A DNA stretch of 64,000 nucleotides from Euzebya rosea (GTDB lineage Bacteria > Actinomycetota > Nitriliruptoria > Euzebyales > Euzebyaceae), in NCBI RefSeq assembly GCF_003073135.1, contig NZ_PGDQ01000019.1, forward strand, positions 1 through 64,000, given 5' to 3'. The notes beneath the pieces were generated by a model. That model worked only from the letters and a program-made list of their open reading frames with translations. It had not been told where the DNA came from and searched no databases. The position numbers were made by a program, and so were the translations under genes. This document shows, in pieces, positions 7,271 to 50,656 of the stretch (position 1 is the stretch's first letter; each line of letters begins with the position of its first letter).

Positions 7271-10200
7271 ATGGGCGACTTCGCACATCTCCACGTCCAC
7301 ACCGAGTACTCGATGCTCGACGGCGCCAGCCGGGTCAACCAGCTGATGGAGAAGGTCGCCCAGATGGGCATGACGGCCTGCGCGATGACCGACCACGGCG
7401 TCATGTTCGGCGCCATCGACTTCCACCGGGCCGGCAGGAAGCACGGGGTCAACCCGCTCATCGGCTGCGAGCTGTACCTCGCCCCCGGGCCGCGGCACAA
7501 CACCACCGAGCTGACGCTGGAGGGCAAGCGCTACTACCACCTGACGGTCATCGCGGAGAACCAGGTCGGCTACCGCAACCTGATGAAGCTGTCCTCCCGC
7601 GCCTACACCGAGGGGTACTGGTACAAGCCCCGCGTCGACCGCGAGCTGCTGGAGGAGCACAGCGAGGGCCTGATCGTCCTCTCCGGCTGCCTCGGTGGCG
7701 AGGTCAACCAGAAGCTGCTGGCCGACAAGCGCGACGACGCCCGCGACACCATGGGCTGGTACAGGGAGGTCTTCGGCGACCGCTACTTCGTGGAGCTGCA
7801 GGACCACGACATCCCCGAGCAGCACGCCACCAACGGGCACCTGATCGACCTGGCCGGCAAGCTCGACATCGGGCTGGTCGTCACCAACGACAGCCACTAC
7901 ACCGAGCAGGCCGACTACGACGCCCACGACGCATTGCTGTGCGTCCAGACGCAGTCACTGAAGGCCGACACCGACCGCTTCAAGTTCCACAACGACCAGT
8001 TCTACGTCAAGCCGGCCGAGCAGATGCAGTCGCTGTTCCCCGACCACCCCGAGACGTGGAAGAACACGCTGCTGATCGCCGAGCGGTGCAACGTCGAGTT
8101 CGACTTCGACACCATGCACCTGCCCAAGTTCCCGTGCCCGCCCGGGCACGACGAGAAGAGCCTGCTGCGCGAGAAGGTGCGTGTCGGTGCCGTCCGCCGC
8201 TACGGGGCCGAGGACAACTCCACCTCCTACGACGGCCTGCGCGACGAGGTCCGCCAGCGGCTGGAGTACGAGCTCGGCGTCATCGAGCAGATGGGCTTCT
8301 CCGCGTACTTCCTGATCGTCGCCGACATGATCGAGCACGCCCGCAACGTGGGCATCCGTGTCGGTCCGGGTCGTGGGTCGGCCGCAGGCTGCGCGGTGTC
8401 CTACGTCACGGGCATCACCGACCTCGACCCCATCCACCACGGCCTGCTGTTCGAACGCTTCCTCAACCCCGAGCGCATCTCCATGCCCGACATCGACATG
8501 GACTTCGACGAGCGCAGGCGCGTGGAGATGATCCGCTACACCGCCGACAAGTACGGCCAGGACCACGTCGCCCAGATCGTGACATTCCAGACCATCAAGG
8601 CGAAGCAGGCCATCAAGGACGCCACGCGGGTGCTCGGGCTGCCGTACTCCTTCGGCGACCGGCTCTGCAAGATGTTCCCGCCGGCGGTCCAGGGCAAGGA
8701 GGCGCCGCTCGACGATGCGCTGGAGCAGTCCGGCGAGCTGAAGGACGCCGCGACCAAGGACCCCGATGGCCGCAAGGTCATCGCGCTGGCCAAGGGCCTC
8801 GAGGGCCTGCGGCGACAGCATTCCATCCACGCCGCCGGTGTGGTGATCGCCGACGAGCCGATCACCGACATCGTCCCGACGCTGCAGGTCGACGGCAACG
8901 GCGAAGTCGTCACCCAGTACGACGGCCGCCAGGTCGAGGACCTCGGCCTGCTCAAGATGGACTTCCTGGGGCTGCGCAACCTCACGATCATCTCCGACGC
9001 GCTGGAGCACATCGAGGCCACGACCGGTGAGACCGTCGACATCGACCACCTGCCGCTGGACGACGAGAAGACCTACGCCCTGATCAGCTCGGGTGACACC
9101 GACGGCGTCTTCCAGCTGGAGTCCTCGGGCTACAAGGCGCTGTGCCGGCTGATGAAGCCCGACCGCTTCGAGGACATCACGGCGCTGGGTGCGCTGTACC
9201 GGCCGGGGCCCATGAGCGCCAACCTGCACACCGAGTACGCCAACCGCAAGAACGGCCTGGCGAAGGTCACCTACATCCACCCCGACGTCACCGAGATCCT
9301 CGAGGAGTCCTACGGCCTGCTGATCTACCAGGAGCAGGTGCAGAAGATCGCGCAGAAGATCGCCGGCTTCACGCTTGGCCAGGCCGACATGATCCGGAAG
9401 GCCATCGGCAAGAAGCTGAAGGACAAGATGGATGCCCTGAAGGGCGACTTCGTCGACGGCACGGTCGCCTCGGGGTACGACAAGAAGCTCGGCATCGACC
9501 TGTGGGCGCAGATCGAGGGCTTCGCCTCCTACGCGTTCAACAAGTCCCACTCGGCTGCCTACGGCATGGTGACGTACCAGACCGCGTGGCTGAAGGCCCA
9601 CTACCCGGTGGAGTACATGGCTGCGCTGCTGACCAGCGTGAAGAACAACAAGGACAAGCTGCCCACCGCGCTGCACAGCTGCCGGACCATGGGCGTGGAG
9701 GTCCTCGTCCCCGACATCAACGACTCGATGATCAACTTCTCGCCGGTCATCGGAGTCGACGAGGACGGCAACAGGACCCGTCCCCGGCAGATCCGCTTCG
9801 GGATGTCGGCGGTCCGCAACGTCGGTGAGGCCGTCGTGTCGGAGATCATCAGGGCACGGACCAGCAAGGGGCTGTTCACCGACTTCCACGACTTCGTCGA
9901 CAAGGTGCCGATCGGCGTGCTCAACAAGCGCACCATCGAGTCGTTGGTCAAGGCGGGCGGGTTCGAGTCGCTCGGCCACACCCGCAAGGGCCTGCAGATG
10001 GTCGTCGAGCCGATCATCGACAACGCGCTCACGATCAAGCGCAAGGAGGAGGAGGGGCAGTACGACCTCTTCGGCGGGCTCGGCGGCGGGTCCGACGACG
10101 CCGGCGACAGCGTGACCGTCGACATCCCCGAGATGGAGTACGACCGCAAGGAGAAGCTCAACGCCGAACGCGAGATGCTCGGCCTGTACGTCTCCGACCA

Positions 10201-10768
10201 TCCGCTGTTCGGGCTCGAACGTGCCCTGTTCGAGCTGGCGTCCGCCCCGATCCCGTCGCTGCAGGAGGCCAAAGGCGGCAGCGAGGCGACGATCGCCGGC
10301 CTGCTGACGTCGGTCACCAAGAAGTTCACCAAGAAGGGCGAGACCTACGTCGTCGGCACCGTCGAGGACCTGGCCGGCGGCATCGAGGTCATGTTCTTCC
10401 CGTCGTGCTACCAGACCTACGCCGACCTGCTGGTCGAGGACGAGATCCTCGTGGTGCAGGGCCGGCTCGACGACGGCCGCGACACCATGCAGGTCATCGC
10501 CGACCGGGTGTCACGGCCCGACCTGTCGGAGGCCACCGGTGCGCCCATCCAGCTGCGGCTCGACCCACGCCAGTGCGCGCCAGAGCTGATCGGCCGCCTC
10601 AAGGGGGTCCTCGTCGAACACGCCGGGGCAGTCCCCGTGACGCTGACGGTCGCCAACGGCGGCCCTCGTGTCACCCAGCTGGCGGTGCCGGAGACCCTGG
10701 CGGTGACCCGCAGCCCCGGCCTGTTCGCCGAGCTGAAGATGCTCCTCGGGGCAGAGGCCGTCAGGTGA
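7271..10768 (+). CDS. dnaE: DNA polymerase III alpha subunit
   Basis: 1165 residues, the replicative polymerase catalytic subunit of the DnaE1 type. An N-terminal PHP domain (residues 1-280) starts with HLHVHTEYSMLDG and keeps the metal-binding His/Asp motifs (MTDHGVMFGA, VTNDSHY), so it may be an active proofreading nuclease as in mycobacterial DnaE1. The polymerase active site shows MPDIDMDFDERRR (Asp407, Asp409) and LKMDFLGLRNL (Asp564). A helix-hairpin-helix region follows, and a C-terminal OB fold at about 1010-1090. GGAAGG precedes the ATG by about 12 nt. It sits between rluD-side genes and the his operon, as in other actinobacteria. Confidence 0.97.
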   Translation: MGDFAHLHVHTEYSMLDGASRVNQLMEKVAQMGMTACAMTDHGVMFGAIDFHRAGRKHGVNPLIGCELYLAPGPRHNTTELTLEGKRYYHLTVIAENQVGYRNLMKLSSRAYTEGYWYKPRVDRELLEEHSEGLIVLSGCLGGEVNQKLLADKRDDARDTMGWYREVFGDRYFVELQDHDIPEQHATNGHLIDLAGKLDIGLVVTNDSHYTEQADYDAHDALLCVQTQSLKADTDRFKFHNDQFYVKPAEQMQSLFPDHPETWKNTLLIAERCNVEFDFDTMHLPKFPCPPGHDEKSLLREKVRVGAVRRYGAEDNSTSYDGLRDEVRQRLEYELGVIEQMGFSAYFLIVADMIEHARNVGIRVGPGRGSAAGCAVSYVTGITDLDPIHHGLLFERFLNPERISMPDIDMDFDERRRVEMIRYTADKYGQDHVAQIVTFQTIKAKQAIKDATRVLGLPYSFGDRLCKMFPPAVQGKEAPLDDALEQSGELKDAATKDPDGRKVIALAKGLEGLRRQHSIHAAGVVIADEPITDIVPTLQVDGNGEVVTQYDGRQVEDLGLLKMDFLGLRNLTIISDALEHIEATTGETVDIDHLPLDDEKTYALISSGDTDGVFQLESSGYKALCRLMKPDRFEDITALGALYRPGPMSANLHTEYANRKNGLAKVTYIHPDVTEILEESYGLLIYQEQVQKIAQKIAGFTLGQADMIRKAIGKKLKDKMDALKGDFVDGTVASGYDKKLGIDLWAQIEGFASYAFNKSHSAAYGMVTYQTAWLKAHYPVEYMAALLTSVKNNKDKLPTALHSCRTMGVEVLVPDINDSMINFSPVIGVDEDGNRTRPRQIRFGMSAVRNVGEAVVSEIIRARTSKGLFTDFHDFVDKVPIGVLNKRTIESLVKAGGFESLGHTRKGLQMVVEPIIDNALTIKRKEEEGQYDLFGGLGGGSDDAGDSVTVDIPEMEYDRKEKLNAEREMLGLYVSDHPLFGLERALFELASAPIPSLQEAKGGSEATIAGLLTSVTKKFTKKGETYVVGTVEDLAGGIEVMFFPSCYQTYADLLVEDEILVVQGRLDDGRDTMQVIADRVSRPDLSEATGAPIQLRLDPRQCAPELIGRLKGVLVEHAGAVPVTLTVANGGPRVTQLAVPETLAVTRSPGLFAELKMLLGAEAVR

Positions 10769-10772
10769 GTCC

Positions 10773-10800
10773 CGTGCCGGCACCCGTGGGTGCCGGCACG
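10773..10800. terminator. perfect 13-bp hairpin between convergent dnaE and the CBS-BON gene
   Basis: CGTGCCGGCACCC, a 2-nt GT centre, then GGGTGCCGGCACG: a perfect 13-bp inverted repeat 4 bp after the dnaE stop and 29 bp before the convergent stop at 10829. There is no T-run. The position and symmetry fit a bidirectional terminator. Confidence 0.6.
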
Positions 10801-10828
10801 TCGAGGCGGTTGACGTCAGCGCCTGGTG

Positions 10829-11965
10829 TCAGGGCGTGACGTCATCGGTGGCCCAGCCGAGCTGGGAGCCGTCCACAAGCAGCACGCCATCGCACCGTTC
10901 CACCTCACGGCACACCGGCGTGACGCGGCTGCGCAGCTTCACGGTGCCGCTCAGGTGCACCCGCCCGTCCTCGACGGTGTGGCGCACGCCGTCCTCGCCG
11001 CGGTCGGCCAGGACGGCCGTGACCGCGGCGCTGATCTCCTCGTCGTCGCGAACCAGCACCCGCAACATGTCGGATCGGGTGACGATGCCGACGACCCTCG
11101 CGCCGTCCATGACGACCAGCCGGGCCACGTCGCGGGTGGCCATGAGCGTGGCGGCCTGCCGCACGCTGGTGTCGGCCTCCGTCGTGACCGCAGGCTTGCT
11201 GCAGGCCTCGCCGGCGTTGCGCGCCGACCACCGCTTCCACGCACGGTGGGCGGCCGGGCCGAGCCCCAGGCGTTCGTCGGCGACGCGATCCAGCAGGTCG
11301 CGTTCCGACAGCACGCCGATCACCTGGTTGCGGGCGTCGACGACCGGCACCCCACCGTGTCCCGCGGCGAGCAGGACGCCGGCGGCATCACGCAGCGATT
11401 CGCCCTCGGACACGACGACGAGCTCGGGGCTCATGACGTCGCGGACGGTCAGCGCAGCGCGGCTGGGGTCGGACTGGAGCGGCCGGTCGAGGTCGTAGAC
11501 GTCCTCGACGAGCTCGCGTGCCAGGTGCCGCACCAGGCGGATGGCCGACGCCCGGGCGGTATCGCTGAGGTAGGTGTCCACCGCGTCCCCGATCGGGCCC
11601 AGCGGTGGCTCGTAGTACCCCACGAGGGACAGCTCGCAGCGCCCGTTGCCGAGGGTCAGCAGCTCGATGACGCCGTCGAAGGTGGGGAACAGGTGGGGGG
11701 CTGGATCAGCCCGCCAGCGCACCGGGATGCGGAGGACGTCCTCGCCCTCCACGCCCTGGTCGATGTGCACGCGGACACGCTTGTGGACGTCGACCCCGCC
11801 CCGGTTGCTGCGCAGCGTCATCAGCACGCTGCCGTCGCCGTCGGGCTGGGTGACGTCGTCACCCGCGGCCTGCTGGAGAAGCTCGGCGGTCCTCGTCATC
11901 AGCGCGTCCCGGAAACGTTTGGGTTCTCCGAAGATCTCGTGGCTCGTGGCGAGTGTGCGACGCAC
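10829..11965 (-). CDS. CBS-pair and BON domain protein of the Kai cluster
   Basis: 378 residues. The first 165 resemble an SRPBCC-like lipid/ligand-binding fold, but this match is weak. Two CBS domains follow (about 173-228, with VRDVMSPELVVV and VIGVLSERDLL, and 250-306, with VVGIVTRSDML), then a BON domain (about 308-367, DGVRHTVEDGRVHLSGTV). CBS pairs usually sense adenine nucleotides; BON domains bind membranes or ligands. The GTG at 11965 has a very strong SD, GGAGGTGAT, 5 nt away. It follows kaiC on the same strand after a 202-bp gap filled by the 7-bp repeat array. A role in reading ATP state for the Kai system is conceivable but untested. Confidence 0.82.
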   Translation of the reverse strand: MRRTLATSHEIFGEPKRFRDALMTRTAELLQQAAGDDVTQPDGDGSVLMTLRSNRGGVDVHKRVRVHIDQGVEGEDVLRIPVRWRADPAPHLFPTFDGVIELLTLGNGRCELSLVGYYEPPLGPIGDAVDTYLSDTARASAIRLVRHLARELVEDVYDLDRPLQSDPSRAALTVRDVMSPELVVVSEGESLRDAAGVLLAAGHGGVPVVDARNQVIGVLSERDLLDRVADERLGLGPAAHRAWKRWSARNAGEACSKPAVTTEADTSVRQAATLMATRDVARLVVMDGARVVGIVTRSDMLRVLVRDDEEISAAVTAVLADRGEDGVRHTVEDGRVHLSGTVKLRSRVTPVCREVERCDGVLLVDGSQLGWATDDVTP

Positions 11966-12063
11966 GGGCGATCACCTCCATGTCGGCAGGTGTCGATCGT
12001 GCACGGTTCGGGCCCGCCGGTCAGGGGCCGAAGGTCCCGCTGCCGCAGGGCCCCCCGTCGACC

Positions 12064-12161
12064 GCGACCCGCGACCCGCGACCCGCGACCCGCGACCCGC
12101 GACCCGCGACCCGCGACCCGCGACCCGCGACCCGCGACCCGCGACCCGCGACCCGCGACCC
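12064..12161. repeat. 14 perfect tandem copies of a 7-bp unit (GCGACCC)
   Basis: The array runs for 98 bp without a mismatch. It begins in the leader side of the CBS-BON gene and ends 6 bp before the kaiC stop codon (12168-12170). The unit is not a multiple of three, but the array is outside both genes, so copy-number change would alter spacing or RNA structure rather than a reading frame. The GGGTCGC strand is the sense strand of the kai transcript. Slippage or phase variation is possible. There are no spacers, so it is not a CRISPR. Confidence 0.97.
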
Positions 12162-12167
12162 GAAAAT

Positions 12168-13661
12168 CTACTCGGAGAACAACCCTCGGAGGCGGTCCTC
12201 GTCCTGGCCCACGCGGACCGGGGTGCCGCCGAGGATGCCCTCGACGAAGCGGAACGGCATCCCGATGTTCATGCCCTTGCCGTCGATGACGACCTCGCGG
12301 ATCTCCTTGTCGTGGGCCGATCCACGCATCTTCAGCACCGTGAGGCCGCGCTTGATCTCGCCGTACACCTCCACGTACCGCAGCAGGATGATGGAGTCAG
12401 TCAGGGTGGAGATGTGGGACACCGTGATGGAGTCGCCACCAAGCAGGGTCGGCGTCGTCGCGGTCATGATCCCGGTGATCTGGCGCTCCTTCAGGATCGC
12501 CGTCACTCCCATCATGTACTGGCGGAACGCACGTGGGCTGGCGATGTGCTCCATCGCCGACAGGCTGTCCAGGGCCACACGGTCCGGCTCGAACTCGTCG
12601 ATCTGTCGCTTCATGACCAGCAGGTGGTCCTCGAGGGACCGCACCTCCGGGTACTCACACACCACCCGGAGCTGCCCGGCCTCCTCGGCGCCCTGGAAGT
12701 CGAAGCCCCACCCGTGGGCGTTGCGGAACAGCTGCTCGCGGCTCTCCTCGTAGCCGAACAGCAGCGCGCGTTCTCCCTGCGCCACACCACCGGCCAGGAA
12801 CGTCGTCGCGGTGAGGGTCTTGCCGGTGCCGGTCGCGCCGGACACCAGGATGACGGAGTCCCGCAGGACCCCCCCGCCGCACATCTCGTCCAGCACCGGA
12901 TCGCCGCTCGGGACGCGTTCGGTGGTGGAGGACTCCTGGCGGGTCTGGCCCGTCACCGGGATCACGACCATGCCCTGCTCGGGGTCGATGGTGAACGGGA
13001 ACTCGCCCTTGCGGTGGGTGGTGCCCCTGAACTTCAGGATCTGGATGGTTCGGCGGACCTCCTCCTGGCGGAGCACGTGGCGAAGTACGAGCACGTCGTC
13101 GGCCACGAACTGCTCGACCCCGAAGCGCGAGATGGCACCGTACTCGTCGTCACGCTCGGCGGTGACCATGCACGTGACCCCCATCCGGGAGAGCCCCTTC
13201 GCCAGGCGGTGCAGCTCGCGACGGACCGAGGAGGTGTCGTCGAACTCGGCGAAGACCGCGCCGATGGAGTCCAGCACGATGCGGGTGGCGCCCGTTCGCC
13301 GCACGGCATCCTCGATGCGGGCCATCAGCGCCGCGAAGTCGTACTCGCCGACGATCGTCGTCCCGACCGTGGTCTGCATGGACGCGTCGATGAACGTCCA
13401 CTTGCCCTGCTCCGTCCAGCCGTCGATGTCCCAGCCGAAGCTGGACAGGTTGCGGGCGATGTCCACCGGTGGTTCCTCGAACGTCACGAAGACGCCCGCG
13501 GCGTCGTCCTCGGTGATCGCCGCGACCAGGTACTGGCCGGCCATCACGGTCTTCCCGGAACCCGCGGATCCCGACACCATGGTGGTGCGGCCCTTCGGCA
13601 GCCCCCCATGGGATATCTGGTCCAGCCCCGCGATGCCGGTGGTGGTCTTCTCGATGGTCAT
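12168..13661 (-). CDS. kaiC: KaiC-type circadian clock ATPase/kinase
   Basis: 497 residues, two tandem RecA-like domains. CI has Walker A GSAGSGKT (31-38) and the Glu pair E62-E63; CII has GATGTGKT (275-282) and E305-E306. In CII the segment SITVSHISTLTDS keeps residues matching the cyanobacterial KaiC phosphosites: Thr413 (T426), Ser418 (S431) and Thr419 (T432). GEIKRGLTVLKMRGSAHDK also matches KaiC closely. The C-terminal tail after residue 480 is about 20 residues shorter than in Synechococcus KaiC, where it forms the A-loop and KaiA-binding peptide. The ATG overlaps the kaiB stop (ATGA). This is a full double-domain KaiC, not a single-domain RadA/GvpD-like protein. Confidence 0.93.
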   Translation of the reverse strand: MTIEKTTTGIAGLDQISHGGLPKGRTTMVSGSAGSGKTVMAGQYLVAAITEDDAAGVFVTFEEPPVDIARNLSSFGWDIDGWTEQGKWTFIDASMQTTVGTTIVGEYDFAALMARIEDAVRRTGATRIVLDSIGAVFAEFDDTSSVRRELHRLAKGLSRMGVTCMVTAERDDEYGAISRFGVEQFVADDVLVLRHVLRQEEVRRTIQILKFRGTTHRKGEFPFTIDPEQGMVVIPVTGQTRQESSTTERVPSGDPVLDEMCGGGVLRDSVILVSGATGTGKTLTATTFLAGGVAQGERALLFGYEESREQLFRNAHGWGFDFQGAEEAGQLRVVCEYPEVRSLEDHLLVMKRQIDEFEPDRVALDSLSAMEHIASPRAFRQYMMGVTAILKERQITGIMTATTPTLLGGDSITVSHISTLTDSIILLRYVEVYGEIKRGLTVLKMRGSAHDKEIREVVIDGKGMNIGMPFRFVEGILGGTPVRVGQDEDRLRGLFSE

Positions 13662-13969
13662 GATGGGTGTGGTCCTCTGTGTGCCTGAGGTGGCAAGGGG
13701 ATGAGCAGCAGTTCGTGTGCCAGCACGTCGGCGGATCGTGGCATGCCGATGATCCGTCGACGGGGCAGGGGGGCGAGCAGGTCGTAGGTGGGCGTGGTGA
13801 TCACGCCCGCGGCATCGGCCAGGGCCGGTTCGCTGGTGACGTCGATGACGGTGATCTCGGCGTCGCCCCCGAAGTGGGTGTCAGCGACGTCCCGGAGCAG
13901 GGCGACGGCTCGGGAGGCGTGGTTCGACCCGCCCACGACATAGACGTTGACTCGGAAGCGAAGTGGCAC
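13658..13969 (-). CDS. kaiB: KaiB-domain protein
   Basis: 103 residues, GTG start. It aligns along its length with cyanobacterial KaiB: VYVVGGSNHASRAVALL matches the first strand and helix, TVIDVTSEPALAD the second, and ITTPTYDLLAPLPRRRIIG the diagnostic TPTL...PLPxRRIIG segment. In cyanobacteria KaiB binds phosphorylated KaiC, sequesters KaiA and changes fold. The gene overlaps kaiC by 4 bp and starts 6 bp after the response-regulator stop, so the three are almost certainly co-translated. A short Pro/His-rich tail follows the KaiB core. Confidence 0.92.
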   Translation of the reverse strand: MPLRFRVNVYVVGGSNHASRAVALLRDVADTHFGGDAEITVIDVTSEPALADAAGVITTPTYDLLAPLPRRRIIGMPRSADVLAHELLLIPLPPQAHRGPHPS

Positions 13970-13975
13970 CGGACG

Positions 13976-14779
13976 TCACCGCTGCCCGCGGTTGTTGGCG
14001 TGCAGCCGGTAGTGCAGTGCGAGGTAGCCGACAACCTCCAGCAGCACCATCCGGCCTTCCTCCGCCAACGCCGACAACCGTTCGGGGTGCACACGGTCGC
14101 TGAGGCGGTGGAGGGCGCTGATGTGGACGTCGATGACGTCACGTGGCACGGCGTTGAGGATCCCGAACTCGCGGCCCAGGGTCTTCATCGCGGGGACCGG
14201 ACGGCGTCCGTCGGCGTAGGCAAGGGCTTCCACGGTTGACTCCAGCAGCTCGACGTAGCGGTCCACCAGCAGGCCGTACACCTCGGGCAGGGCCGTCTTC
14301 AGGCGCTGGTCACCGAGCATCTCCAGCGTGATCGGCGTCGCCGACGCCAGGATGTCGTCGCCGATCTCCGGCTCGCCGATCTCCGCGTACTCCAGGGACA
14401 CCGACAGGGCCCGTGCCACCGCGTGGTTGCGATGCCGCTGGCGGACGATGGCCGCCTCCACCCGAGGGGGCAGCCCCTCGATGTCGGACTTGAGCACGAA
14501 GTCCTGTGCTCCGGCCTCGATGGCCTGCGGCCCGATCGCAGGGTCCTCGTTGCCGGTCAGCACGACGACCGGGATCTGGGGTGCCTGCGCCAGCAGCTGT
14601 GCGAGCGTCTCGAAGCCCTCCGAGTCGGGCAACCCGAGGTCCAGCAGCACGACGTCGACGCCCTCGAGTCCGACGAGCGCCTTCGCGACGCTCCTGACGT
14701 GCTGGACGTCGAACGTCGGGAACTGGGCGGTCACGAAGGCGGCGTCGTCGGCTTCGTCCTCGACGAGGAGCATCTTCAT
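13976..14779 (-). CDS. response regulator with KaiA-like C-terminal domain
   Basis: 267 residues from the ATG at 14779, chosen because AAGGAG lies 9 nt upstream. The receiver domain (1-115) is complete: acidic VEDE at 7-10, phosphoacceptor Asp47 in LLDLGLP, Thr75 in VLTG, Lys97 in FVLKSD. A helical linker leads to a C-terminal domain (about 160-260) whose motifs VIDVHISAL and EGRMVLLEVVGYLALHYR resemble the KaiA C-terminal motifs VVEIHMELM and DYRLALIDVIAHLCEMYR. The distantly similar RsbU N-terminal fold is the alternative. Cyanobacterial KaiA3 has the same receiver-plus-KaiA design. Adjacency to kaiB-kaiC supports a KaiA-like role; the homology is my by-eye judgement. Confidence 0.78.
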   Translation of the reverse strand: MKMLLVEDEADDAAFVTAQFPTFDVQHVRSVAKALVGLEGVDVVLLDLGLPDSEGFETLAQLLAQAPQIPVVVLTGNEDPAIGPQAIEAGAQDFVLKSDIEGLPPRVEAAIVRQRHRNHAVARALSVSLEYAEIGEPEIGDDILASATPITLEMLGDQRLKTALPEVYGLLVDRYVELLESTVEALAYADGRRPVPAMKTLGREFGILNAVPRDVIDVHISALHRLSDRVHPERLSALAEEGRMVLLEVVGYLALHYRLHANNRGQR

Positions 14780-14859
14780 CCAGTCTTGCTCCTTGGATCG
14801 ACGGGGCGAACGGGCCGAGCTCGCCCTTGAATGTGGTTCATGGCGAAACTCGGCCCAGA

Positions 14860-14865
14860 AGGATA
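14860..14865 (-). promoter_or_regulatory. weak candidate -10 (TATCCT) for the kai operon
   Basis: TATCCT on the minus strand, followed by a leader of about 75 nt, sits in the 124-bp gap before the response-regulator gene. No convincing -35 was seen. The upstream small gene ends at 14904 on the same strand, so read-through from there is also possible. Confidence 0.3.
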
Positions 14866-14903
14866 CCGCACCGGTTGTGCACGTACCGTAGGTGATGCTG
14901 AGC

Positions 14904-24011: not shown

Positions 24012-27000
24012 TTGCAGAACCTCGTGTCCTTCACGGCGAGCCGGCTCGCCGTCCTGCTCCTGCTCGTGGCCAGCGTGCTGGCGTCCCCGTCGTCGGTGGC
24101 GGCCCAGGAACGCCAGCGCAGCGAGATCATCGTCCTCGGCGGCCCTGCCGCCGTCTCGGAGGAATCCGTCGAGTCGCTGCGCGACCTGGCCGACGACCTG
24201 ACGGTCGTCGCCGGTGCGGACCGGTACGAAACGGCGGTTGCCATCGCGGCCGGGGCCTACCCTGACGGCGCAGACGTGGTGTTCGTCGCCACCGGCGAGG
24301 ACTTCGCCGACGCCCTGGCCATCGGCCCCCACGCCGCGCGCAGCGGCGGACCGATCCTGCTGACCCGGCCCGGCGACCTGCCCACCTCCACCGAGGCAGA
24401 GGTCCGTCGACTCTCCCCCGAACGGATCGTCGTCGTCGGCGGGCCATCCGCGGTCGGACCGCAGGTCGAGGCGTCCCTGGCCACGATCGCGCCGGTCGTG
24501 CGGATCGCTGGTGACTCCCGCCTCACCACCGCGGTGGCCGTCTCCGCGGTCTCCCATCCCGACGGGACGGACGAGGTCGCCATCGCCCGGGCCGACGACT
24601 TCGCCGACGCCCTGGTGGCCGGGCCGCTGATGGCCGAGCGCAACGGGCCGATCCTGCTGACCGGCACCGACGAGCTGTCGGAGGTCACCCGTGCCGAGCT
24701 GCTGCGGCTCGACCCCACACGCATCACCATCCTGGGTGGGACCGCTGCGGTCGGCGCGGAGGTCGAAGCCGCGGTGGCCGACCTGGCCCCGACCGTCGAG
24801 CGGATCGCCGGGGAGAACCGGTTCGAGACCGCCCTCCAGATCGGGCTGGCCCTGTTCGGGGAGCACGGCGCCCAGCGTGTGTACGTCGTCAGCGGCGAGT
24901 CGTTCGCCGACGCCCTCGCCGGCGCCGCCATCGCCGTTCGCCCCGACTCGGGCGGCTTCGCCCAGACTGTCGGCGGGCTCCCTGGCCCCCTGGTTCCCGT
25001 GGGTCCGCCCATCAGTCTGGGCATCATCGCCCAGCTGCTCATCGAGGCGGACCTCGTGTTCGAACCCCCGACCGTGGCCGACATCACGGTGACCACCGAC
25101 AAGGACACCCCGGTCGACATCACCCTCGACGGCACACCCAACCCCAGCGTCGACCTGCCGCTCACCTACGCCATCGATGACCTGCCGTCCGACGCCGACG
25201 TGACCCTCGATGGGGACATCGTCACCTTCGACCCGCTGGGTGCGCCGGGTGCCCGCACGTTCACCTACACCGCGTCGCAGGGCGACGAGACCTCCGAGCC
25301 GGCCACGGTCACCGTCGAGGTCACCGACCTGCCGGACACGCCCGGCAACCGTGCCCCCACCGCCACCGACCTCGCCGTGACCACCGACGAGGACGTCCCC
25401 GTCGTCATCACGATGACCGGCACCGACCCCGACGGCGACCCGCTGACGTTCACCGCAGGCGCCGCCACGTCGGGCACGGTCGTGCCCGGCCCCGGACCCG
25501 ACGAGGTCACCTACACCCCGGACCCGGACACCAACGGGCCCGACAGCTTCACCTACACCGCGTCCGACGGCAGCCGTGACAGCGCGCCGGCCACCGTCGA
25601 CATCACCGTCACCCCGGTGCCCGACGCCCCCGTGGCCATCGACGGGTCGGGGACGACCGACGAGGACGTCGACCTGGTCGCCAGCGTCTCCGGGACCGAC
25701 GCCGACGGCGACGTGCTCGCCTTCGCCGTCGACACCGCGCCCACCGCGGGATCGTTGACCGCCTTCGACACCGCCACGGGCGCGTTCACCTACACCCCGA
25801 CGCCCAACGCCAACGGCACGGACAGCTTCACCTTCACCGTCGACGACGGCAGCGGACCGACGGCACCGGGCACCTTCGACATCACCGTCACCCCCGTCGA
25901 CGACCCGCCGGTGGCCAACCCGGACACCATCACCACCAACGAGGACACCCCGGCGGGCGGCACCGTGACCGCTACCTCCGTCGACGGGGGCACGATCACC
26001 TACGCGCTCGACACCGACGCCACGAACGGCACCGCGACCGTGGCAGCCGGCGGCGCCTACACCTACACGCCGGACCCCGACTACAACGGGCCCGACAGCT
26101 TCACCTTCAGCGCCACCGAGGACGGGTTGGCCTCCACAGCCACCGTGTCGATCACCGTCGACCCGGTCGCGGACGCGCCCACCGCGGACGACCAGACCCT
26201 CAGCACCGACGAGGACGTTCCGGTCAACGGCACGCTGACCGGTGACGACGCCGATGGCGACGCGATCACCTTCGCCGTCGACCCGGCGGACCCACGGGTC
26301 ACCGGCCTCGACGTCAACACCGGTGACTTCACCTTCACCCCCGACGCCAACACCAACGGGTCGCAGAGCTTCACGTTCCGCACCAACGACGGTGCGCTCG
26401 ACTCGCCGCTCGCCACGGTGACGATCGACGTGGCCCCCCTCCAGGACGCACCCACGGCCACCGCCCGCACGGCAGGGGTGGACGAGGACGACTCCGTCGT
26501 GATCGCCCTGGCCGGGACCGACGCCGACGGTGACCCGCTCGTCTTCGCGATCGACACGGATCCGACCGACGGCACCGTGACCGCGCCCGTGTCGACCGGG
26601 GTCACGTCGGCAGAGGTCACCTACACCCCGAACGCCGACTTCAACGGACCGGACAGCTTCACGTTCACCGTGGACGACGGCACCGACACGTCGGCGCCGG
26701 CAACCGTGGACATCACCGTGTCCAACGTCAACGACCCGCCCACCGTCGACGACGCCAGCGCGACGACCGACGAGGACGTCGCGGTGACCGTCAACCTCGT
26801 GGGTGACGACATCGACGGGGATGCGCTGACCTTCACGGTCGTGTCCGGTCCCACCAACGGCACCGTCGGCGCGATCACGCCGACGGGCAACGAGACCGCA
26901 ACGGTGACCTACACGCCCAACGGCGACTACAACGGCTCCGACTCCTTCACGGTCAGGGCCAACGACGGCGCGCTCGACTCCAGCAGCAACGCCACGGTCA

Positions 27001-30000
27001 CCATCACCGTCGACGCGGTCGACGACCCGCCGACCGCGACGGCCGGCAGCGAGAACGTCGACGAGGACGACTCGGTGCTCATCACCCTGGCGGGCACCGA
27101 CGTCGACACGGCCGACCTGGCCTTCGCGCTGGGGACCGGACCGACGAACGGGACGCTCGGCGCCATCAGCGGCAGCGGGGTCGGCCAGTCCGCGACGGTG
27201 ACCTACACGCCGAACGCGAACTACAACGGATCGGACAGCTTCACGTTCACCGTCTCCGACGGGACCACGACGTCGGCCGCCGCCACCGTGTCCATCACGG
27301 TCGACCCGGTCGACGACGCGCCGGCCGCGACCGCCGGCAACGCGACCGTCGACGAGGACGACTCGGTGCTGATCACCCTGGAGGGCACGGACCCCGACGG
27401 CGGGAACCTGACGTTCACGATCGGGACGGGGCCGAGCAACGGCGGGTTGGGCGCCATCGGTGGCAACGGGGCCGGCCAGTCCGCAACGGTGACGTACACG
27501 CCGAACGCGAACCACAGCGGGTCCGACAGCTTCACGTTCACCGTCTCCGACGGGACCACCACGTCGGCTCCTGCAACCGTCTCCATCACCGTCACCCCGA
27601 TCAACGACCCCCCGGTCGCGGCCGACGACGACTACGACGCGTTCGGCAACACCGAGCTCATCGTGGTCACCGACCTCGCCGATGCCACCCCCGCGCTGCG
27701 TGGGCCGGGCGTCCGCATCCAGGGGACCCTGCTCGACGGGGACACCGACGTCGACGGCGACACGCTCTCGGCGGTTGCCGCGACCGGGCAGGCAACGACC
27801 CAGGGCGGCAGCGTCGACATCCAGGCCGACGGCACGTTCGTCTACACGCCTGCCGTCGGGTCGACCACCACCGACACGTTCACCTACACGGTCACCGACG
27901 GCACCGTGGACGATTCGGGCCTCGCGACCATCACGCTCTCGGAGCTGATCTGGTACGTCGACGCCGACGCGGCCGCCGGTGGCGACGGGCGGTCCCACAC
28001 CCCGCTCGACACGATGCCCAGCACCGTCGGCGCGGCGGGCGACATCGTGTACGTGGGCGAGTCGGCGACCGCGGTCGGTGGAGCCGGTACGACCCTGCAG
28101 GCCGACCAGCAGCTGATCGGCGCCGGGGTCGCCCTCCAGGTCGGGCTTCCCTCGACCGAGCTCGCCCCGGCCTCGACCGCGCCGGTCATCACGAGCACCG
28201 CCGATGGCGTCACGCTGGGCGTCAACAACACCGTTCGTGGGATCGACATCGGCACGACGAGCGGCATCGGCCTCGTCGGCAACAGCGGCTTCGGGACCCT
28301 GTCGATGTCGGATGTCGTGATCAGCGGGACGGGGAGGGCCATCTCCCTGATCGGCGGCACGATGGGCGCCCCGCCAGCGGGGACCCGACACATCGACTCG
28401 GTGGACGTCGTCCTGGCAGGAGGAGCTGATCGCGCCATCCACACCAACCAGCTCAGCGGGGCTCTCCTGCTCGGGACGGTCGACGTGACGGGCACCGGCC
28501 ACGGCCTCCGCCTCATCGACACGGGCGGCGTCAGCATCGACAGCCTCGACGTCGACGTCACCGGGATCGCGCTGCAGGCCCAGGACCTGACCACCCTTGC
28601 CATCCTCAACGGCACGGTCGAACAGGAACGGCTGCACAGCAGCGCCGACGCGGCCCTCGACCTGGACAACATCCGCCTCCTGTCGTTGACCACCGACAGC
28701 GTGTCGAGCAACTCCTCGGGTACGGGGGTATCCGTGTCCTCGACTGCAGGGGCGCTGACCGTGGAGGGCCCCACGACCGTCGACTCCGTCGCCACGACGG
28801 CGATCGACATCGACAGCGGACCATCCGTGACGTTCGGCGGCCTCGTCCAGGCAGCAGGCAGTAGCGGTCTCCAGCTGACCGGTGGAACGACCACCCTGAG
28901 CGCCATGGGTGGCCTTCAGGTGAGCGGCACGACCGGCATCGGCCTCGAGGTCGGGTCCGGCACGACGATCAACGTGTCCGGGCCGGGGTCCACCGCGTCC
29001 TCCACCAGCAACACGGCGGTCGACATCACCGGAACGATCGGTGGAAGCGGCGTCACCTTCGACAGCGTCACGGCCGGGGGTGGCACCCACGGCATCGTGT
29101 TGTCGAACACCGGCGCGGGGGCGTTCACCGTCACCGGTACGGGTGGCCCCGACAGCGGCGGCACGATCTCCTCCACGACAGGGGAGGGGGTGCTCCTGAC
29201 CAACACGGGTGGCCCCATCAGCTTCACCGACATCCGGATCACCGGCACCGGCAACCACGGAATACGCGGTACCAGCCAGACCGGCGGGTTCACCGGTAAC
29301 CGGCTGACCCTGACCACCATCGGCAACGCCGACGACGAGCGCGGCATCTGGTTGACCAACCCAGGCACGGTCACCATCACCGACCCGTCCCTCACCACGA
29401 TCGCCGACACCGCGATCGAGATCGACCGGACCACTGCGTCGACGGGAGACGTGACAATCACCGCCACGACCCCCGGACCGCACATCGACACCACCGCCAA
29501 CTCCGGCGCAGGCGTGGAGATCACGGCGATCGGTGCTGGAGCAGTCGTTCCGGGTGGGTCCATCGACGGGATCGACATGACCGGCATCGACGGCCCCGCG
29601 ATCCGGCTGCTCGCCGGCGACACGTTCGGTTCGGCGGCTGGAGCCATCGGCACCCAGGGCACGGCCGGCACCGACTCGACCGGATCGTTCAGGATCTCCG
29701 ACGTCGCCGTCGGCACGGTGGCGCCGTTCGTCGCGGGTGCCGGAGGTGGCGGCATCCAGATCCGCGGCGCCGGCAACGGCACCATGGACGTCGACATCAG
29801 CGACGCCGACATCGTCACCGACAACGCGTTCATGGCCAGCGCCGTCTCGGCTGACGAAGCCGATGTCGTGGTCGAGATCGCCGGCAGCACCCTCGCCATG
29901 GACAACCCCGCGTTCAACGCGGTCGGCGTCGGGGCCGCGCTGGTGGCCGACCCGGGTCAGTCCCCGGTCCTGCACACCACGATCACCAACACCGCGGTCG

Positions 30001-50541: not shown

Positions 50542-50567
50542 CCGCCGTCCACACGGGTGCCCGGCCC

Positions 50568-50625
50568 CACCCGGCCGTGCCCGACGCCACCCGGCCGTGC
50601 TGGACGCCACCCGGCCGTGCCCGAC
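50568..50625. repeat. 2.9 tandem copies of a 20-bp unit after glgP
   Basis: CACCCGGCCGTGCCCGACGC at 50568, 50588 (two substitutions) and 50608 (partial, 18 bp). They start 26 bp after the glgP stop, in the convergent gap. Purpose unknown; it may be a terminator-associated or slippage-generated repeat. Confidence 0.85.
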
Positions 50626-50656
50626 CCGATGTGCAGTTCGCTCGATGCGTTGGCCG

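Follow-up and report, generated by a model that had tools for sequence, protein, structure and literature searches.

A fourteen-copy heptanucleotide array beside a kaiC cassette of Euzebya rosea, probably a young product of slippage

Phase-variable repeats of bacterial pathogens are located in reading frames or in promoter spacers. A different kind of short tandem array was described by Rehm et al. in 2015, namely the heptameric G-rich repeats GGGAATC of Xanthomonas and GGGGA(C/T)T of Nostoc (PMC4692102). These heptamers lie at most 50 bp from a stop codon, on the sense strand, and are rare between divergent genes; a genome harbors many of them, and 83% of their positions are kept between species (PMC4692102). 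The authors found no regulatory role for them and deemed phase variation unlikely (PMC4692102). A survey from 2025 reported that a subset of 6-9 bp repeats is enriched in prokaryotic phyla and that short tandem repeats are enriched at indels (PMC12699852).

Here we describe a heptamer array of Euzebya rosea. It is located in what we call the window, that is, the whole stretch of 64,000 nucleotides that was analysed. At positions 12064..12161 the plus strand reads GCGACCC in 14 perfect copies, where the exact copy number hangs on the reads underlying a 40-contig draft assembly of 5.5 Mb. The absence of errors, claimed in the initial annotation, is confirmed by the sequence itself and by TRF, whose call (12062-12162, 14.4 copies, 100% match, score 202) comprises the exact 14-copy block with two and one extra bases. 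Three to four or more perfect head-to-tail copies of 7 bp make a heptameric simple sequence repeat, and the array, with 14, is one. Minus is the sense strand for kaiC, kaiB, the response regulator and the CBS-BON gene; the unit there reads GGGTCGC, so the G-rich strand of the array is the sense strand. In the order of transcription, the kaiC stop codon (TAG, 12170-12168) is followed by a spacer of 6 nt and then by the array. The 6-bp spacing had thus been given correctly, but the array begins at this distance from the stop and does not end there. On its other side, 98 bp separate the array from the GTG start of the CBS-BON gene at 11965.

In a sample of 1.67 Mb of the genome (1,674,787 bases), no other perfect array comes close to this one in length. 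For units of 5-12 bp and a minimum length of 28 bp, the sample contains a single further perfect array, a 9-mer in 3.4 copies, and the runner-up among heptamers reaches 3.6 copies. When the entire 5.5-Mb assembly was searched for the unit, no second locus with four or more copies of GGGTCGC was found; dimers occur at two further places. As a single heptamer it is neither unusual nor over-represented (794 observed, 925 expected), which rules out an over-represented seed motif. Likewise, none of 60 relatives carries GCGACCC as an array, and a genome-wide repeat family is ruled out. Because the array is so much longer than any other, its unit is arrayed nowhere else in the genome or in the relatives, and the heptamer is not enriched, the array is not due to chance and is a true outlier for its genome. 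The window has two further tandem repeats: one of about 291 bp at 26615-27614 (3.4 copies, 75% alike), which probably reflects domain repeats in a large secreted protein, and one of 20 bp at 50557-50627 (3.5 copies).

The array follows a cassette of three minus-strand genes. The first encodes a response regulator (13976..14779; Pfam PF00072, E 2.5e-14), with a probable ATG start at 14779 picked from the sequence. It is followed by a kaiB-like gene (13658..13969, 103 aa; PF07689, E 2.3e-12) and a kaiC-like gene (12168..13661, 497 aa) with two KaiC ATPase domains (PF06745, E 2e-109, two stretches). The CBS-BON gene, also on the minus strand (10829..11965, 378 aa), matches Pfam CBS above the cut-off and BON, with E 8e-5, below it. 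The order response regulator-kaiB-kaiC is found again in another cassette, on contig C1 of this genome, and in the congener G002. A KaiC-based search of public genome contigs recovered no relative. Searching for a plasmid-borne version of the locus gave matches to remote kaiC-like, response-regulator and similar genes only, and neither a known RNA family nor a tRNA was found as an integration site.

The neighborhood of dnaE and CBS-BON is common to the congener G003 at 86-88% nucleotide identity, and the gene order in G003 is likewise dnaE, CBS-BON, small ORF and histidine kinase. The blastn alignment with G003, however, stops at 12056 and restarts at 14903, which is the end of the small ORF. 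The 2.85-kb segment in between (12057..14902), containing the response regulator-kaiB-kaiC cassette and, at the edge facing CBS-BON, the array, is missing in G003, where its equivalent consists of about 100 bp with a strong inverted repeat (predicted hairpin of -56.8 kcal/mol over 118 nt). The edge of the array and the last base that can be aligned with G003 are 5-8 bp apart. Since synteny breaks at 12056 and resumes at 14903, the array, judged by this comparison, marks the CBS-BON-side (downstream) junction of a cassette specific to this lineage. No KaiC match was found in G003, and kaiC is present at this locus in none of three congeners (G001, G002 and G003). The CBS-BON gene with its leader is shared, within the congener comparison, by this genome and G003 only; the G003 protein is 89% identical and has no kaiC beside it. 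For these reasons, the simplest reading would be that this lineage gained the cassette, rather than that G003 lost it; the species itself is represented at the locus by one Euzebya rosea genome.

The second cassette (L085 ~9045-11884, G000:C1) is also missing from an otherwise aligned G003 locus. Both cassettes measure about 2.84 kb and show presence or absence relative to G003, which has about 100 bp left at the first locus and some 40 bp at the second. A clock-like cassette cleanly gained or lost twice, in separate events, would merit its own study. Another peculiarity of G003 is a second, diverged dnaE-matching stretch on its small replicon (G003:C2:188243-190358, 67% nucleotide identity).

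Between the alignment break and the CBS-BON start lies a conserved leader of 91 bp (11966..12056, minus strand) with a near-perfect Shine-Dalgarno sequence, GGAGGTGATC. Compared with G003, 85 of 92 aligned columns are identical (92%), and the figure for third codon positions of CBS-BON is 70.7%. Conservation of the leader exceeds that of the gene, and some 30-odd bases nearest the start are identical in both genomes. In predicted structure the leader folds strongly, and it may contain a regulatory site. Although a consensus scan found no sigma-70 promoter in the gap between kaiC and CBS-BON, CTGACC-N17-CACGAT at 12024..11996 can perhaps be read as a weak candidate -35/-10 pair within the leader. 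High conservation of the leader, together with the occurrence of the gene in G003 with no kaiC ahead of it, suggests that CBS-BON probably has upstream signals of its own. The initial annotation had placed the array in a transcript joining kaiC to CBS-BON; on the same two grounds, such a single transcript is possible but doubtful. The array itself falls outside the leader.

RNA from the sense strand of the array is predicted to form a single long hairpin (MFE -72.1 kcal/mol, z -6.8 against dinucleotide shuffles), in which UCGCGG pairs with UCGCGG and one G.G mismatch is left per unit. The opposite-strand RNA reaches -39.3 kcal/mol, and both strands fold far more weakly as DNA.

Apart from Euzebya rosea, 49 species out of 84,980 carry the unit in five or more exact copies, at scattered loci in several phyla and mostly in high-GC actinobacteria and proteobacteria. 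Copy numbers range from 5 to 18 across species, and all eight genomes checked have one array locus each. The 18-copy array belongs to Burkholderia strain D-99, and none of the 19 Burkholderia sister loci that were examined has it; because of this, the Burkholderia arrays look young as well. Degenerate edge copies and mixed neighboring repeats are found at the arrays, as is typical of slippage. GGGTCGC arrays at two loci (L097 and L123) are embedded in or flanked by different short repeats (TAGCTCG; ACTGAAT-like), and these mixtures suggest slippage hotspots. As to the fast change of length expected in the initial annotation, turnover is made plausible by the scattered loci in 49 species, by the single locus per genome and by the Burkholderia absences.

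From the sequence of the array, its uniqueness, its position at the junction, the conservation of the leader and the predicted fold, we infer, with a probability of roughly 0.68, that the array is a young microsatellite born by slippage at the cassette junction and persisting in neutral space, with a passive hairpin effect if any. Replication slippage would have begun at a seed that arose by chance (GTCGACC GCGACCC in the junction sequence), where the lineage-specific cassette abuts the older CBS-BON leader. Self-complementarity of the unit probably aided its growth. Lying between the end of kaiC and the conserved leader, the array would then persist in neutral space. Any effect would most likely be passive: kaiC mRNA reaching the array would gain a very stable 3´ hairpin, which would shield it from 3´-5´ decay, hinder read-through and separate kaiC from CBS-BON. 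This insulating part of the reading is opposed by the lack of a U tract and by the fact that other hairpins are not depleted near such arrays (p 0.91, see below). Fourteen flawless copies in a nearly array-free genome could reflect selection or a very recent burst, which are indistinguishable here.

Selection would be central if the array were a 3´-end element, with the RNA hairpin protecting kaiC mRNA or ending its transcript, in place of the junction hairpin of G003. We regard this as unlikely. The predicted hairpin is exceptionally stable and starts 6 nt past the stop, the short junction of G003 also has a strong hairpin, and in our reading of the sequences, related Burkholderia loci have terminator-like inverted repeats where D-99 has its array. 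No U tract, however, follows the array on either strand; a scan of the gap for Rho-independent terminators gave no hit, and the array, with a predicted GC-rich hairpin and no U tract, is not a canonical one. Moreover, the locus does not lack a hairpin, since the CBS-BON leader is itself predicted to fold well. The distribution of arrays in other genomes is expected under both tolerated slippage away from promoters and function at 3´ ends. By our own rough gene calls, 11 of 42 placeable arrays are inside called genes, with coding sequence covering 85% of these loci, and the other 31 are intergenic: 13 in tandem gaps with the G-strand sense, 5 in tandem gaps antisense, 11 in convergent and 2 in divergent gaps. 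Avoidance of divergent (promoter) gaps is modest (2 of 31, p 0.013), as is the preference for the upstream stop within tandem gaps (14 of 18, p 0.03), and the excess of sense over antisense in tandem gaps (13 versus 5, p 0.10) is a trend only. When 33 array-bearing 3´ regions were compared with 145 controls, hairpins other than the array were no scarcer in the former (p 0.91), which rules out the arrays as general stand-ins for terminator hairpins. A broader version, in which a self-complementary heptamer recurs at 3´ ends in GC-rich bacteria, insulates newly acquired genes, such as the kaiC cassette, by its RNA hairpin and is tunable by slippage, seems to us rather improbable.

Distinctly improbable, in our opinion, is the copy-number switch proposed in the initial annotation, where slippage would alter read-through, mRNA stability or spacing and so cause heritable variation of CBS-BON expression. 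It is true that perfect short tandem arrays are mutable, that this one lies between two genes of the same strand and that some 40 bp separate its end from the possible -35 hexamer downstream in the leader. Nevertheless, gain or loss of units alters no frame or promoter core, and CBS-BON has its own conserved leader, which exists in G003 without kaiC and does not include the array. The hairpin is also large long before 14 copies, with predicted energies of -24.5 kcal/mol at 6 copies and -36.4 at 8, about 6 kcal/mol being gained per unit. Because it is already so strong at 6-8 copies, its effect would be near maximum well below 14, and changes around that number would matter little. Leader conservation and the hairpin strength at low copy numbers thus weaken two premises of the switch, the joint transcript and the sensitivity near 14 copies. 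With a conserved leader, with neither promoter nor terminator detected by scanning and with this energy profile, the claim that copy number sets downstream expression is unsupported. Phase variation was also considered unlikely by Rehm et al. for the G-rich heptamers related to this one (PMC4692102).

One might also take the array for a G-quadruplex repeat of the GGGNATC type known from Xanthomonas and Nostoc, acting via a DNA or RNA quadruplex. Its heptamers contain GGG tracts on the sense strand just past a stop, the place preferred by those repeats (PMC4692102), and the G4Hunter score of 1.14 equals that of GGGAATC; the sequence pattern fits G3N4, though the RNA energy model prefers the hairpin. 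ViennaRNA with quadruplex energies keeps the hairpin for GGGTCGC and chooses a quadruplex for GGGAATC and GGGGACT. As GGGTCGC moreover forms a single locus here and no genome-wide family, we hold a quadruplex repeat to be very improbable. Substitutions in edge copies gave no clear pattern that would indicate selection for either hairpin or quadruplex. Finally, an assembly artefact or miscount is hardly credible: short-read assemblies can collapse tandem repeats and this one is a 40-contig draft, but ordinary 150-bp reads can span the 101-bp array, its flanks are unique, the cassette genes are intact, and the same unit is arrayed in many independent genomes.

Returning to the young slippage-born microsatellite, the array, if neutral, cleanly marks a cassette junction of recent date and could serve for strain typing. 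If the transcribed hairpin matters, it would represent a slippage-born array serving as a 3´-end element for newly acquired genes. In either case, the hairpin predicted for GGGTCGC warns against classifying every GGG-containing heptamer array as a G-quadruplex repeat.

Among described systems, the heptamers of Xanthomonas and Nostoc resemble the Euzebya array in lying just past a stop with the G-rich strand as sense. They differ in that the Euzebya array occupies one locus, has 14 copies instead of the preferred 4 and is not kept in a congener; its unit is self-complementary and is predicted to form a hairpin rather than a quadruplex. Membership in the GGGNATC / GGGGA(C/T)T class is ruled out by the different unit, GGGTCGC, and by the lack of many loci. 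The TAACTGA direct repeats of Beggiatoaceae and cyanobacteria (PMC4679880) are likewise intergenic heptamer arrays, sometimes long, but they consist of another, AT-rich unit, lie mostly just upstream of starts and occupy many loci per genome. With phase-variable repeats of pathogens the array shares a perfect short tandem structure able to slip. Those repeats, however, act by altering a frame or promoter spacing, neither of which changes here with length, distant effects aside; the Euzebya array is behind a stop and outside a conserved leader, and switching is putative at most. Hairpin-cluster intrinsic terminators (PMC8355165), too, are hairpin-forming sequences downstream of a stop; theirs are short hairpins, and that of Euzebya, as predicted, is one long hairpin built from a repeat.
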